From assembly GCA_937936325.1 (NCBI GenBank), contig CALGWV010000068.1, positions 1 to 42,749 on the forward strand: a stretch of DNA of 42,749 nt, written 5' to 3'. The DNA is from an uncultured Bdellovibrionales bacterium. GTDB lineage: Bacteria > Bdellovibrionota > Bdellovibrionia > Bdellovibrionales > UBA1609. Positions 8,689 to 33,521 of the stretch are shown here, in pieces. The notes below the pieces were generated by a model, which saw only the letters and a program-made list of their open reading frames with translations, was not told where the DNA came from and did no database searches. Numbering within the stretch: the first letter of the stretch is position 1; every line of letters begins with the position of its first letter. Position numbers and translations under genes: made by a program.

Positions 8689-10857
8689 TTAATTTGGAGG
8701 ATTTAAAATAGGCCCTTTAGAGCCTGGTGCAAATTCGTGATCTTCAAAAAGATAAGCCTCTGAAATCATTTTCACTGAGTAGCCTGACCTCCCTCCAGCT
8801 AAGCAAGCGTTTTGAGGATAAGGGGCGTGGCCCTTGTTAGGATCCCAGCGTTCTGAACACTTTCCGAACCTTGTTGAGAGCCCTGTGGGCGGCAAATAAG
8901 TATTCACATCTGAACCCTCAGTCCATGAAGTGAGGAGATGCATGAGTTGGCTATCTTCTCCACCTTGATCATTAAGTAAATAAAAATACTTGTTTGTATG
9001 TGGTGAGTTTCTGCTTTTAAGCTGTTCTTCAATTCCAGGTGTTAGCCCTGGTGTTGAGCTTAAATTGTTGAAATTCATATTGAGATCTCCCCTAAGCAAG
9101 CTTTCATTACTAAATGCAAACTTAGCAGCCATGGCCGAGGTCGATGATGTGGTGAATGCATTTGGCACTCTGACCCACCTCTGGAGATGCTTTAAAGAAG
9201 AGTCATAAAAATAGGCTTGAATATTGTAATGTGTGATGTCGAACATATCAGGGGATATAGCATGAAGTTCGGCCCTTCTCATAAGTGAATTTGTGATTGA
9301 AAGGGAGGTGCCAATAGGGCTCCCTGCAAAAAGGTTTGAAAGCATTCCTCTCATATCTTGGGTTGAAAACCTTCCGCTTCCACTGGCTTGCACCAATGGT
9401 TCAAACATACTTTGGGCCATTTCAGAAGCCATGCCTAATTGATCGCCCGGGTAACGGCTGTAATTAGGAAGCATGCTGGCATCTAAGCTCCCAGAGGGAG
9501 GGGGGGATGCTCCATTGCGTCTGGGTGCTGCAAGAAGATCAGTTTTTTGTCCTCCAAGGCTACGGTTAGATCCACTGGGCCACTGCGAGTAGTACCACGG
9601 ACCAATGCTTCCCCCAAAGGGTTTGGAATAGGCTTTGGCTTTAAGTTTATTGCTTCCAAGGCTAAAAATTCCTGAGAAGTTTGTTTCTCCATGGACCTGA
9701 TTGTAAATCATATACCAAGGGTTTTTTTCAATACCTGAGGCAAAGGCCACATCATCTTTTTCATTAAAAAATTTGGCAAAATCACGAAGCCCTATGCCAT
9801 TATTATACCTTGCTAAAGAGTTAGCGGCGTCGGCATACAAATTTGGAAAGTTGGGATATTCATATACTGTTAAAGATCTTTGGGTAGTGTTCACATTGTT
9901 AGTTTCCAACATACTGTAATAGGCCATTAAAAAAATTTGTATTTCAGGAAAGAGTATATTTTTGACTTGATCAGGTGAAAAATTTTGAAGTGAATTGGTG
10001 ACATTAAAATTCACTAATGAATTTGTAGTAGATAAATTATGTTTAAAAGTTTTTTCTGCTCCAAGGTAAACACTTTCTCCTCGGAGGTCCTTCATTCCTC
10101 CTGACTCAACAATAGGTAAGGCCAAGTTTTTAGCAATTTCCCAAAAAAGCAGTTTATAATAGGCTTGCTGAACTCTAAAAGCAGATAGAGCAGCTGTGCT
10201 AAACCACCAGTTCACCAATGCAAAAGCCTGGCGTTCTTTGTCAAGTTTTGTATTTGCCGCAGACACTCCGGCTGACAGGACAGAGTTGATAGAGAGTCCA
10301 TAAATATTGGCCAGACTGGGAATCGTTCTAAGGCCGCCAATTTTGGCTTGGTTACACCAGTCTGTAGTAGAGAGGCTGGGGTCGTTAGATAAAACCTCTT
10401 TAGAAAAAATACAGGGAGAAATTTGATCACTCAACGAGTTTTGCCCAGCCAACGGGCGTGCATAGGAGTAAAGTCTATCTTGAGGTGTTCCACCACTTAG
10501 TATGTTTGAAACCTGGACTGGGTGGGGGATTGAGGCCGTACCGCGGCTAAGAGTTCCTAAAACACGATACCTAAAAGCCATTAATTTATAAGACTGACGT
10601 ATTAAATAGTTAATATGCCCCATAGCATCTAAAAGTTCAGCTTGGCGCTGGGCCACGTATATGCTGGCAAAGTCAGCAGAGTTTTGAATATTTATTTTAT
10701 TACTGACGACCATACCTACATGAATGGTCATACCAAAAAGAGTAAACATAATAACAAAGGCAAAGGCTAAGAATATCGAAACCTGACCTTTTTCTTGAGC
10801 CCTTGGCTGTGCTTTGGATGGATTCGTTAAAAGTTGGGGATGAAGACTTGATTTCAT
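8689..10857 (-). CDS. TadG-like Flp pilus/secretion-associated membrane protein
   Basis: The product has about 722 residues. An N-terminal membrane helix (about 24-48) sits in the context GQVSIFLAFAFVIMFTLFGM, then KINIQNSADFASIYVA. This matches the TadE/TadG N-terminus (prepilin-like helix, then an 'aaDaAAla' segment). The remaining 650 residues are probably periplasmic and have no motif I recognise, and I do not see the vWA domain common in TadG. The ATG at 10857 is chosen; an in-frame TTG at 10893 adds 12 residues, and neither has a good Shine-Dalgarno. It heads a minus-strand set with two secreted orphans. No Tad ATPase or secretin is present in this window. Confidence 0.65.
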   Translation of the reverse strand: MKSSLHPQLLTNPSKAQPRAQEKGQVSIFLAFAFVIMFTLFGMTIHVGMVVSNKINIQNSADFASIYVAQRQAELLDAMGHINYLIRQSYKLMAFRYRVLGTLSRGTASIPHPVQVSNILSGGTPQDRLYSYARPLAGQNSLSDQISPCIFSKEVLSNDPSLSTTDWCNQAKIGGLRTIPSLANIYGLSINSVLSAGVSAANTKLDKERQAFALVNWWFSTAALSAFRVQQAYYKLLFWEIAKNLALPIVESGGMKDLRGESVYLGAEKTFKHNLSTTNSLVNFNVTNSLQNFSPDQVKNILFPEIQIFLMAYYSMLETNNVNTTQRSLTVYEYPNFPNLYADAANSLARYNNGIGLRDFAKFFNEKDDVAFASGIEKNPWYMIYNQVHGETNFSGIFSLGSNKLKAKAYSKPFGGSIGPWYYSQWPSGSNRSLGGQKTDLLAAPRRNGASPPPSGSLDASMLPNYSRYPGDQLGMASEMAQSMFEPLVQASGSGRFSTQDMRGMLSNLFAGSPIGTSLSITNSLMRRAELHAISPDMFDITHYNIQAYFYDSSLKHLQRWVRVPNAFTTSSTSAMAAKFAFSNESLLRGDLNMNFNNLSSTPGLTPGIEEQLKSRNSPHTNKYFYLLNDQGGEDSQLMHLLTSWTEGSDVNTYLPPTGLSTRFGKCSERWDPNKGHAPYPQNACLAGGRSGYSVKMISEAYLFEDHEFAPGSKGPILNPPN

Positions 10858-17404: not shown

Positions 17405-18736
17405 ATGGTTCAATTTCTATCAAATTTTATAATTAAAGTCCTTTTAGTAGGTTTATTCGTAGTAGCGGGCTGTCAGACTGAAAAGCAGTCAGATCTGGGT
17501 ATGGTCGATAAATATAACGATTTAGTGGAAGATTATAACTCTCTGTTGAAGAGAAAAAAGAATATATTAGATGCCACGTATAAATCCAGTAAAGAATTCA
17601 TTGGCTTTATGAAAGCAACAAAGAGCATGAATAATGTTCTGAGTGTATTTTCTGGAAATGTCGTTAAATATATAGAATTCTCTGATAAAGCTAAAAAACA
17701 AAAATATTCTGCTTTAAAAGCTCAGTTTGAACTTGGAGTAGAAAGAATTTCAGATGTTGAGTTGATGCTCATCAATCAGTTTGACGAAATTTATCTTATT
17801 GCACCAGAAATCTTTAAAAATGGTCAAGCTCCACTAGATAAATTAAATTTTAAAAGTGGAAATTCTCAGCTCTACGGCGTTGAGGCTCAGCACAGAGTGC
17901 TTATGGACATAGTGATCAAGCATTATAATGAAGCCAGTCATAAATCAGTACCCTATGTAACTCCAACAGAAAAAACCAATAAAGCAGTTGCTCAAAAGAG
18001 AATCGTACTTGAAGATTCTGAGAAAGTTGCAGCTGGAGCTCGAGATGGCGAGGGTATGTACTTTTCTAAAGGACCTCACTCTAGATTAGTCGTTGCCTCT
18101 GAAAAAGACTTCGCAACTCAAGCTGCAAAATTTGGCTTCAGACCTGATATGATTCGAGACAGTCAAAAAATGGCGACCTCAATGAGGGGCGTAGTGGGGA
18201 TGGCATGCACGGGTAAGCTTGTTCCTGTCCTTAATAATTTAGTTTCTCATATGAAATCTAAAGCCAATCAAAACACAGACGATTTAGAACTTGCTCTTGT
18301 TATCGATTATTCAGGATCTATGGATAATAATATTAAAAGCGTGTTAGACCAGTTAGGGGATTTTGTGAAGTCATTAAATAATGTAAAGATAGCAAATCGT
18401 GATATAAAAGTGGGAATCGTTACTTTTGGACAAAGACATCAAGAACTCATAGAATTAGCTTTAACCTCAGACAAAACTAAAGTTCAAGCGACTTTAACAA
18501 AGCTATTGAGCGAGTTTTATAGCAAAAAACATTCAGAACCCGTTGGAGAAGCCTCATACTATGGTTTAGCTAAAACTGCAGGAATGAATTGGCAATCAAA
18601 AAACAGACAAGCCATCGTAATTACTGACGAGCCCTCCTACTCTCTGCAAGTGAGAGACACGGATTATGTCAACTATGTGACCAAAAAAATGTCAGATATA
18701 GATGTCTACCCCTTAATGGTAAGGCTCTGTAATTAA
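17405..18736 (+). CDS. Lipoprotein with C-terminal von Willebrand factor A domain
   Basis: The product has 443 residues. A lipoprotein signal ends in VVAGC (Cys 23). A helical region with coiled-coil character covers about 30-135, then a linker, then a vWA domain at about 295-443. The metal-ion-dependent adhesion site begins DYSGSM at residues 301-306; a TFG motif and ITDEPS supply further canonical positions. Such domains bind protein ligands through a metal. CAGGAG precedes the ATG. A sigma-54-type promoter lies directly upstream, so expression is probably conditional. The gene stands alone and converges on a hairpin element. Its ligand is unknown; adhesion or envelope sensing are guesses. 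Confidence 0.8.
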   Translation: MVQFLSNFIIKVLLVGLFVVAGCQTEKQSDLGMVDKYNDLVEDYNSLLKRKKNILDATYKSSKEFIGFMKATKSMNNVLSVFSGNVVKYIEFSDKAKKQKYSALKAQFELGVERISDVELMLINQFDEIYLIAPEIFKNGQAPLDKLNFKSGNSQLYGVEAQHRVLMDIVIKHYNEASHKSVPYVTPTEKTNKAVAQKRIVLEDSEKVAAGARDGEGMYFSKGPHSRLVVASEKDFATQAAKFGFRPDMIRDSQKMATSMRGVVGMACTGKLVPVLNNLVSHMKSKANQNTDDLELALVIDYSGSMDNNIKSVLDQLGDFVKSLNNVKIANRDIKVGIVTFGQRHQELIELALTSDKTKVQATLTKLLSEFYSKKHSEPVGEASYYGLAKTAGMNWQSKNRQAIVITDEPSYSLQVRDTDYVNYVTKKMSDIDVYPLMVRLCN

Positions 18737-30285: not shown

Positions 30286-30993
30286 ATGGAGCAGCAACAG
30301 ACTGTATTATCTCTAGATACGTCTACAAGTAGGGCTTCGATCTCAATAGGTTTTGAAGGTTCAAAAAAAATACAGACCTTGATCTGGGAGAAACAACGCT
30401 CCCATTCAGAAGAACTCTTTCATCAGCTAAGGAAAGTGCTAAATGAAACAAATACAAAACTGAGTGATATAAAAAAAATTCTTGTCACTCGAGGGCCTGG
30501 GCGTTTTACCGGGGTACGAATTGGAACCTCTTTTGTGAAAGCTTTTGCTTATAAAGATAATCTGGAAATTTTAGCGACTCACTCTTTATTGGGACATTAT
30601 TTAAATTTTTCAGAAAAAAATAAATTCTCGCACTATTTAGTACTCAGACGTTCTATACAAGGCTTTTATTTCGTTTTAGAAATAAAGCAACAGGGAGTGA
30701 AAACTCAAACCAGAGCTTTTGAGAAGAGTGTTAAAGCAGCTGAATTATTAGATTTTTTATCAAATAGAACTTTACTTCTTGTCGAAGATGATCAGGACTT
30801 GGCTTCTTTGAAGGAAGCCCTCGGAGAAGTTCAATTCGGGATATCAAACTCATTTCCACACTCAGAAGTTTTACTCCAACACTACTTTGAAAAACTAAAT
30901 TCAGATTTATTTAATAAATATGACTTTCTAAGCCTAAGTCCCCTTTACTTAAGAGCCTCTCAAGCCGAAATAGTATATAGATCATCAAAATAG
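30286..30993 (+). CDS. tsaB: tRNA threonylcarbamoyladenosine biosynthesis protein TsaB
   Basis: The product has 235 residues of the ASKHA fold. The N-terminal SLDTSTSRASISIG and the block ILVTRGPGRFTGVRIGTSFVKAFAY are the TsaB signature. TsaB is the non-catalytic partner of TsaD/TsaE in making t6A37 on tRNA. The ATG follows the rseP stop without a gap (TAAATG). The C-terminal half is divergent, as usual for TsaB, which is the less conserved subunit. Confidence 0.9.
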   Translation: MEQQQTVLSLDTSTSRASISIGFEGSKKIQTLIWEKQRSHSEELFHQLRKVLNETNTKLSDIKKILVTRGPGRFTGVRIGTSFVKAFAYKDNLEILATHSLLGHYLNFSEKNKFSHYLVLRRSIQGFYFVLEIKQQGVKTQTRAFEKSVKAAELLDFLSNRTLLLVEDDQDLASLKEALGEVQFGISNSFPHSEVLLQHYFEKLNSDLFNKYDFLSLSPLYLRASQAEIVYRSSK

Positions 30994-31000
30994 AGAGAAA

Positions 31001-31936
31001 ATGAGAGAAAGACTTCAGAAAACTAAACATACTTTTGCTATCGGCAGTGGAAAAGGAGGCGTAGGAAAGTCATTATTGAGTTCTAACTTTGGAATTCATT
31101 GCTCTAAAAAGGCTTATAAAACCTTGATCATTGATATGGATCTCGGAGGGGCCAACCTTCATACCTATCTGGACTTTCGACCTACACCTACACGTATTGA
31201 TCTTTGGAATCCGAGAGAGCCGGAGTCCATTTTAAAAACAATTTCTTCAACAGCTTTTCCTGGTTTAGATATTATTGTGGGTTCAGATGAGCTCCTAGCG
31301 AGTCAGATTGAATCAGCAAGTATTGAGTTGTTAGTTTATGAGATAATGAAATTAGACTATGAAGTTATAATTTTTGATCTAGGAGCTGGGGTTGGACCAG
31401 AAACATTAATTCCTTTCTGTGCCGTAGACACACCTGTTTTGCTCAGCACACCGGAAGATACAAGTATTGAAAATGCGTACTTTCTGCTTAAAAAAGCCTT
31501 TCATTTTAAATTAAGACAGGTTTCAAAGGAGCTTGGTTATGAACAAGGTATACAAGAGATCATAAATAAGCCTTTAAAGAAGTTCTCTACCCCTTCTGAT
31601 TTGTTAAAATATATAGGTGGAAGTGAGCAGTTTCCAGGGTTTAACTCTAAGATGAAAGAGCTCAGTCCAGGGATTTTACTAAATCAGGTGCGGAGTTTTA
31701 ATGAGGAGTCTATTGGTCCATCTATGGCTCAAGTCTGTCGCCATTATTTTGGTCTGGATATAATTTCAGTAGGTTTAATACAATATGATTCATCCATGTG
31801 GGTGGCTTCTCGAAAAAATAAATCAAAAATGATGAATTACCTGGATTTAAAATTTTGTGGACAAATGTCTAGTGTTTTCCAAAATCTTTTGAAATCTGTG
31901 ACCTTTAACCCACAAAGAAATAAAATCAGAGCATGA
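31001..31936 (+). CDS. FlhG/MinD-like P-loop ATPase
   Basis: The product has 311 residues. It has a deviant Walker A, GSGKGGVGKS (about 15-24), then DMDLGGANLH and DLGAGVGPETL, as in the MinD/FlhG/ParA superfamily; such proteins dimerise on ATP and position cell structures. It has an unusual insert at about 170-205. I do not see the C-terminal amphipathic membrane helix of MinD, so FlhG-like or a separate family is more likely. It lies seven bases after tsaB and overlaps a J-domain/HTH gene by four bases, so the two are expressed together. The structure it positions is not apparent here. Confidence 0.82.
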   Translation: MRERLQKTKHTFAIGSGKGGVGKSLLSSNFGIHCSKKAYKTLIIDMDLGGANLHTYLDFRPTPTRIDLWNPREPESILKTISSTAFPGLDIIVGSDELLASQIESASIELLVYEIMKLDYEVIIFDLGAGVGPETLIPFCAVDTPVLLSTPEDTSIENAYFLLKKAFHFKLRQVSKELGYEQGIQEIINKPLKKFSTPSDLLKYIGGSEQFPGFNSKMKELSPGILLNQVRSFNEESIGPSMAQVCRHYFGLDIISVGLIQYDSSMWVASRKNKSKMMNYLDLKFCGQMSSVFQNLLKSVTFNPQRNKIRA

Positions 31937-32517
31937 GCCAAACATTTGACGAACTTGATTACTACGAAATTCTTGAACTGCATCCCAATTCTAGTTACCA
32001 AGAAGTAGAAGAGGCCTATCAGTTGGCTAAAAAGTCATTTCACCCTCAAAGCTCAGCACTTTATGGGATATTAGCGCAAGATCAAGCTCAAGACTTTTAT
32101 AAAACGATTGAAGAAGCTTATCATACATTGATACAGCCCCGAAGGCGCCAAGAGTACGATCAAATATTACGTCGCACTGACGCTAATGAAGCCCGCTTGC
32201 TGACAAACCAAAAATTGGGAGCAACTCAATTAAAGTCTGTTCCTCAAATAAAAAATGAAATTCCAAATTGGGCTCTCGAGGAAGAGAGCTTTTCTGGTGC
32301 CTTTTTTCAAAAACTAAGACATCATAAAGGGCTCACGCTTGAAGATATAAGCCATAAGCTTAAAATAAAAAAAAGTTATATTCTCGCCATTGAATCTGAA
32401 GATTTTGAATCCTTGCCCTCAGCAGTTTATGTCAGGGGATATGTGAAGAGCATTGCCTCAATTTTAGGCTTAGATTCTGAGAAAGCAGCGAATCAATTCA
32501 TGACCCACTATAAATAA
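31933..32517 (+). CDS. J-domain-like / RodZ-type HTH fusion protein
   Basis: The product has 194 residues with two parts. Residues 9-79 follow the DnaJ J-domain pattern (DYYEILELHPNSSYQEVEEAY, ending RRRQEYDQIL), but the Hsp70-activating HPD motif reads HPQ (37-39). Residues 122-190 match the RodZ-type cytoplasmic helix-turn-helix (LRHHKGLTLEDISHKLKIKK, then VYVRGYVKSIASILGLD). No transmembrane helix follows, unlike RodZ. It is translationally coupled to the FlhG/MinD-like ATPase. A cytoskeletal or polarity adaptor is plausible, whereas a co-chaperone is doubtful given the HPQ. Confidence 0.8.
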   Translation: MSQTFDELDYYEILELHPNSSYQEVEEAYQLAKKSFHPQSSALYGILAQDQAQDFYKTIEEAYHTLIQPRRRQEYDQILRRTDANEARLLTNQKLGATQLKSVPQIKNEIPNWALEEESFSGAFFQKLRHHKGLTLEDISHKLKIKKSYILAIESEDFESLPSAVYVRGYVKSIASILGLDSEKAANQFMTHYK

Positions 32518-32534: not shown

Positions 32535-33521
32535 ATGTTAAAATTTGAATATCTTAATGAAAATAAAAAAAGACTAGATCATTTTTTGGACGAGCAAATC
32601 AAAGATGTGACAAGGTCTCAAATTCAAAAATTAATTAAGACCTCAAAAGTTTGGGTAAATGAAAAAAACGAGAAATCCTCTTATACATTAGAGCTTGGTG
32701 ATCAGGTCGAAGTTGATCTGGAAGATCATAAAACTCAGGCTGAGCTTTATCCGGTAGATTTAAAACTCAGAGTTCTATTTGAAGACGAATATTTAGCTGT
32801 AATATTTAAGCCACATAATCTAAGTGTTCATCCAGGCAACGGCCCCGAACAGGTGACACTGGCCCATGGGCTTTTGCATCAGTTTAGTTCCCTCAGTACA
32901 GGCTTCAAGCCGGACCGACCAGGTTTGGTACATAGGTTAGATAAGGACACAGAAGGTCTGCTTGTCGTTGCAAAAACAGATGAAGTCCAAGAGGGACTAA
33001 AATTGCAATTCCAAAGCCGACAAGCAGGGCGAACCTACTTAGCCTTAGCTTGGGGTGATCCTAAAAACTCAAAAGGAAGTTTTGAAACTCACCTTTCAAG
33101 GCATCCGAGGCAGAGGTTAAAGAGAGCTTCAGTAGATATCGAAAAGTATCCCAAGGCTAAAAAGGCAATCACTCATTATGACGTGTTGGCTCACGGACCA
33201 GTGAGTCTTTGGAATTTAAAGTTAGAAACTGGTCGCACTCACCAAATTCGTGTGCACTTATCGGAGAATTTATACCCCATTGTTAATGATACTTTGTATG
33301 GGCCCCAAAACACCTCCCATTTAAAAGGGGAAATGAAAGCTCTGACTAAAAAATTAGGTCGTATATGTTTGATTGCTTATAAGCTAGAATTTGTTCATCC
33401 TAAAACTCAAAAGCCAATAAAAATAGATTTAGAACTGCCTCCTTACTGGAAAGGAGTTCTGAAAAAATTAAAACCCCAATTTAGGTTTGTATATGATGAT
33501 GAATTTAATAAACTCTTTTAA
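32535..33521 (+). CDS. rluD: RluA-family 23S rRNA pseudouridine synthase
   Basis: The product has 328 residues. An N-terminal S4 RNA-binding domain (about 12-62) is followed by the synthase domain with the catalytic motif HRLDKDTEGL at 133-142 (Asp 136). The usual Ser of 'DTSGL' is Glu here. The later KLETGRTHQIRVHL motif is intact. The S4 plus synthase layout and length fit RluD (pseudouridines of helix 69), but RluC-like proteins share it, so the symbol is tentative. It is 17 bp after the J/HTH gene. Confidence 0.85.
   Translation: MLKFEYLNENKKRLDHFLDEQIKDVTRSQIQKLIKTSKVWVNEKNEKSSYTLELGDQVEVDLEDHKTQAELYPVDLKLRVLFEDEYLAVIFKPHNLSVHPGNGPEQVTLAHGLLHQFSSLSTGFKPDRPGLVHRLDKDTEGLLVVAKTDEVQEGLKLQFQSRQAGRTYLALAWGDPKNSKGSFETHLSRHPRQRLKRASVDIEKYPKAKKAITHYDVLAHGPVSLWNLKLETGRTHQIRVHLSENLYPIVNDTLYGPQNTSHLKGEMKALTKKLGRICLIAYKLEFVHPKTQKPIKIDLELPPYWKGVLKKLKPQFRFVYDDEFNKLF

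Follow-up and report, generated by a model that had tools for sequence, protein, structure and literature searches.

A MinD-type ATPase and a soluble J-domain/RodZ-type HTH protein as a candidate positioning module in the Bdellovibrio phylum

What might be done by a protein that joins a J-like domain without HPD to a RodZ-type HTH domain, and whose gene follows directly on that of a MinD-type ATPase? The question is raised by a locus of an uncultured Bdellovibrionales bacterium (GCA_937936325.1, contig CALGWV010000068.1), of which a stretch of 42,749 nucleotides, hereafter the window, was analyzed. A first-pass annotation had placed two overlapping genes here and had read them as a polarity or cell-shape module rather than a chaperone unit; both genes and their four-base overlap (ATGA, 31933-31936) were confirmed, and the product of the second is called J-HTH below (Table 1). 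A literature search returned no paper joining a DnaJ domain with RodZ, and a study of ParA in Bdellovibrio covers other ParA genes, the ATPase/J-HTH pair being absent from the part of that text reached by term search (PMC7186360). As far as the literature searched shows, a MinD-type module with a repurposed J-like domain of this kind has not previously been described.

Table 1. Features of the ATPase/J-HTH locus, in positions of the window.
Feature	Position	Strand	Description
TsaB-like protein	30286..30993	+	Upstream operon neighbor in the window's order only, after pyrH-frr-uppS-cdsA-rseP
MinD/FlhG-fold deviant-Walker-A ATPase	31001..31936	+	311 aa, ORF intact
J-HTH adaptor (putative)	31933..32517	+	194 aa; J-like residues 9-76, helix and disordered linker 77-120, RodZ-type HTH_25 122-193
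Loop replacing HPD	32041..32073	+	H37-L47, HPQSSALYGIL; A42 and Y44 nearly invariant with the ATPase, mostly lost without it
VYVRGYV, HTH helix 4	32425..32445	+	Residues 165-171; Y166 and Y170 align with the RodZ MreB-binding aromatic pair
RluD-like pseudouridine synthase	32535..33521	+	S4 + PseudoU_synth_2; most constant J-HTH neighbor, 89/90 loci

The ATPase belongs to the MinD/ParA superfamily, and its MinD-type deviant Walker A fold was confirmed. It matched the CbiA domain (3e-11), and the closest PDB sequence was that of FlhG (4rz2, 1.6e-19), which was also the best match by fold. The signature residues Lys18 and Lys23 in GSGKGGVGKS, D45/D47, and the Walker B residue D126 are all intact, and the deviant Walker A and Walker B residues are invariant across 35 aligned relatives. 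FlhG and FleN (PDB 4rz2, 4rz3, 5j1j) thus resemble the ATPase in fold, deviant Walker A, and nearest PDB sequence, but the ATPase carries a helical insert of ~65 aa (residues ~165-222, between the SIENAYRF helix and the LNQ strand) that FlhG lacks, and it has no FlhG-like tail; a C-terminal helix is present. Shortened operon ATPases of ~260 aa were observed at L143:5223-5993, where the insert is absent, and at L245 (genus code g33), both with an intact J-loop; they represent either ongoing decay or a reduced form. One genome held an extra operon-type copy away from the operon (G197:C50:36147-37022, E 2.6e-61), the sole such case seen.

J-HTH combines matches to the Pfam families DnaJ (3.5e-11, residues 9-76) and HTH_25 (9e-22, residues 126-184), and in its AlphaFold model four helices make up the J-like domain and five the HTH domain, with a low-confidence linker between them. 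Foldseek returned single-domain matches to J-domains and to RodZ-type proteins (E 0.008-0.1, probability 1.0). The protein ends at the HTH, where RodZ continues into a transmembrane segment, and its highest 19-residue hydropathy is 0.89, compared with 2.1-3.1 in true RodZ proteins; the first-pass description of a J-like domain fused to a RodZ cytoplasmic domain without a membrane anchor was therefore upheld. That annotation had also reported HPQ in place of HPD, which is true of the window protein (residues 37-39) but atypical of the family: the His position is occupied by Ser in 150 of the 192 distinct sequences, and HPD occurs at the J-loop position in none of them, the literal HPD strings of two orthologues lying outside the loop. 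The family lost HPD early, and the window protein with its HPQ is an unusual outlier in it. Because the window genome also encodes genuine J proteins that carry HPD (YHPDKN, WHPDAN), the loss in J-HTH is not a genome-wide oddity. A further J-like domain of the same genome has HVD instead of HPD (G000:C44:10298-10495).

The nearest solved structures to the HTH of J-HTH were the RodZ-type proteins YmfM, CT009, and T. maritima RodZ. Binding to MreB requires an aromatic pair in E. coli RodZ (F60/Y64) and Chlamydia Ct009 (Y66/F70) (PMC4047632), and the corresponding positions of J-HTH are aromatic in 187/187 (Y166) and 185/187 (Y170) aligned orthologues, with or without the ATPase. This agrees with the earlier assignment of the domain to the type that binds MreB, although such a pair may be common to HTH_25 domains in general. 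J-HTH accordingly shares with the RodZ cytoplasmic domain and CT009 (PDB 2wus, 4gqm) the HTH_25 fold and the aromatic pair, and it differs from them in its fusion to a J-like domain, in having no membrane segment, and in coexisting with a separate RodZ in the window genome. MreB was found in 60/60 genomes tested, in G030 as a fragment only. Genomes that lack J-HTH still have both MreB and RodZ, and MreB is therefore independent of J-HTH.

Examination of the architecture and its neighborhood across genomes, as the first-pass annotation had proposed, showed that the order ATPase, J-HTH, RluD-like gene recurs phylum-wide. In the window's taxonomic order the arrangement is uppS-cdsA-rseP-tsaB-ATPase-J-HTH-rluD, and other families of the phylum keep just ATPase-J-HTH-rluD; because only these three are retained there, they form the conserved core. 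In 76 of 90 loci the gene immediately 5' of J-HTH, in the same orientation, is the ATPase; among the 79 genome-contig loci having both genes this holds for 77, and the two frequently overlap. The rluD-like gene lies directly 3', again often overlapping, and stays where the ATPase is gone. Orthologues with intact HPD and no conserved linkage to the ATPase, the pattern that the first-pass annotation had set against itself, are thus not what the survey returned. At most of the loci inspected in other families (L118-L137), a divergent gene encoding HLxRKxxHxxxG was seen just 5' of the ATPase on the opposite strand; its product may be a kinase acting on lipid or polyprenol, or a CTP transferase. 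Elsewhere in the window are a 722-aa protein whose N-terminal domain is of the Tad type (TadE/G-like pilus assembly; 8692-10857, minus strand) and a VWA-domain protein (17405-18733).

J-HTH is present throughout the Bdellovibrio phylum except in small-genome members and a few families. The ATPase was found in 41 of 60 genomes, Halobacteriovorax and Bacteriovorax among the named ones, and each of the 41 also carries J-HTH; no genome of the 60 had the ATPase without J-HTH. J-HTH without the ATPase was seen in 11/60, with the incomplete genome G023 as one more. A search with an ATPase alignment recovered 80 loci, of which all that were titled below class belonged to the Bdellovibrio/Bacteriovorax/Oligoflexia group; a genome-contig search with a single window protein as query gave no match. 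Nine related small genomes (1.2-2.0 Mb; G001, G012, G013, G016, G029, G030, G241, G242, and G245) have lost both genes, and MreB is kept in those tested.

The lineages that kept J-HTH and lost the ATPase indicate which part of J-HTH depends on the ATPase. Of 194 J-HTH columns, A42 and Y44 ranked first and second in separating ATPase-present from ATPase-absent sequences: A42 was found in 78/78 with the ATPase vs 3/13 without (Fisher 4e-11), and Y44 in 76/78 vs 3/13 (3e-9). Among genomes of the order fetched afterwards, both residues were present in 23/23 with the ATPase; in the eight without it, Y44 remained in two and A42 in six, so that the pattern held for Y44 and was weaker for A42. A further 79 ATPase-bearing loci, of which about 12 lie on contigs included in the earlier counts, had A42 in 78 and Y44 in all 79. 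Support in an RluD-only tree being too weak, a tree of six neighboring genes was used to count losses of the ATPase; there were about eight, of which seven are forced by supported branches. Across seven supported independent pairs, A42 and Y44 together followed the ATPase in 5.6, ran against it in 0.0, and showed no difference in 1.4, giving a median p of 0.031 that rests on about seven losses and on residues chosen post hoc from data overlapping the tree test. In the column control over seven loss clades, A42 changed in five and Y44 in four, 25 of 32 conserved J-HTH columns changed in none or one, and HTH columns changed in at most one, except position 131; the loss of A42 and Y44 is not general decay, because other conserved columns behave differently. 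There are exceptions: G222 lost the ATPase yet has an intact loop, and the genus g33 mostly keeps A42. The conserved linker motif GxxKTxxxxYxxD did not strongly track ATPase presence in the column comparison, and no ATPase remnants were found 5' of J-HTH in the loss lineages. We interpret these sequence patterns to mean that the J-loop is selected only where the ATPase exists and the HTH always, which would give J-HTH two independent surfaces.

The reading that we tentatively favor, at close to even chances, is that the two proteins form a positioning module in which a MinD-type ATPase works with a dedicated soluble RodZ-like adaptor that docks through its former Hsp70 loop, the HTH acting on MreB or another partner. 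The intact motifs and fold suggest that the ATPase would be a switch that dimerizes with ATP. J-HTH, in which the J-like domain no longer has the HPD required for driving Hsp70, would be its dedicated adaptor, and the co-loss pattern suggests that docking would occur at the loop centered on A42-L43-Y44. The RodZ-type HTH may bind a second, ATPase-independent partner, most likely MreB, a weaker step that draws on the retained aromatic pair. The ATPase cycle could thereby be coupled to the MreB cytoskeleton or to a site of cell-wall growth by an adaptor without a membrane anchor. The architecture, the phylum-wide absence of HPD, the gene linkage, the distinctness from FlhG, and the joint loss of loop and ATPase are observed; direct contact between ATPase and J-HTH, MreB as partner, and a role in positioning are inferred. 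In its broader form, in which a J-domain turned once, phylum-wide, from Hsp70 activator to docking or activating partner of a MinD-type ATPase, with a soluble link to MreB and a positioning design not described before, the proposal is possible but doubtful.

Other readings draw on the same observations. FlhG is the best PDB match of the ATPase by both sequence and fold, so the pair might be the flagellar FlhG system, which sets flagellum number and place. Flagellated relatives, however, own a separate FlhG-like gene adjoining FlhF (e.g., G048 C1 3446572 and 3447429), and the operon ATPases form a single clade apart from the FlhF-linked FlhG of the phylum (99*). The ATPase locus has no linkage to FlhF or flagellar genes in its gene order; at least seven FlhF-less genomes retain the ATPase, and it has been lost from at least 11 that bear FlhF. 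The window genome itself (2.06 Mb) has the ATPase, no FlhF above cut-off, and no FlhG; the organism probably lacks flagella, although its order is flagellated. At the level of orthology this distribution refutes the flagellar reading, which we consider highly improbable. Of the first-pass label FlhG/MinD-like, the fold stands; identity with FlhG was rejected on the separate clade, the insert, the coexisting FlhF-linked FlhG, and independence from flagellar genes. That J-HTH is an ordinary Hsp70 co-chaperone has in its favor the J-domain fold itself, and is made exceedingly improbable by the absence of HPD from every distinct sequence and by the HPD-bearing DnaJ proteins of the window genome; a chaperone role was rejected on that loss, in line with the first-pass view.

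The co-loss of loop and ATPase demonstrates dependence, not contact, and the loop might instead touch a third protein whose gene was lost alongside the ATPase, with ATPase and J-HTH sharing a pathway without meeting. We regard this as unlikely, given that their genes adjoin directly, and often overlap, across the phylum, and that no other neighbor was seen departing together with the ATPase, the genes up- and downstream remaining in place. FleN and FlhG being the closest solved structures to the ATPase, and the HTH fold being related to DNA-binding regulators, the pair could also act in transcription, the HTH binding DNA and the ATPase serving as its anti-activator in the manner of FleN for FleQ; this is quite unlikely, since both Pfam and structural matches place the HTH in the RodZ class, and the part of FleQ that FleN binds is an AAA+ domain, which has no counterpart in J-HTH. 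The constancy of the RluD-like neighbor, retained even without the ATPase, could mean that the locus contributes to ribosome maturation, the ATPase being an assembly factor. Adjacency can, however, simply be inherited with the operon, the architecture of the RluD-like protein is a plain S4 plus synthase, and a RodZ-type HTH is not a known RNA-binding module, leaving this reading very unlikely.

For the favored reading, a positioning ATPase with a J-type adaptor, partial precedents exist. ARC6/ZipN (Ftn2) of plastids and cyanobacteria is a J-type protein that binds FtsZ and is thought to be independent of Hsp70 (PMC6391411). Compared at the J-like domain only, it resembles J-HTH as a cytoskeletal-protein binder with an N-terminal J-type domain, and it is not known to have an HTH_25 domain or an ATPase partner gene. 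CbpA keeps HPD and still serves DnaK. Its J-domain in complex with the inhibitor CbpM (PDB 3ucs), a structural match to J-HTH, provides an example of a J-domain as a docking surface for a non-Hsp70 protein.

Beyond the first-pass annotation, this analysis adds the constant RluD neighbor, the phylum-wide range, and the co-loss of J-loop and ATPase. The loop result suggests a route by which a J-domain may part with Hsp70 and take up another ATPase; the two residues it singles out are A42 and Y44. Filamentous growth and an unusual manner of division mark the predatory bacteria of this phylum, and a conserved MinD-class ATPase with a dedicated RodZ-like partner would be a concrete candidate for placing their division and growth machinery.
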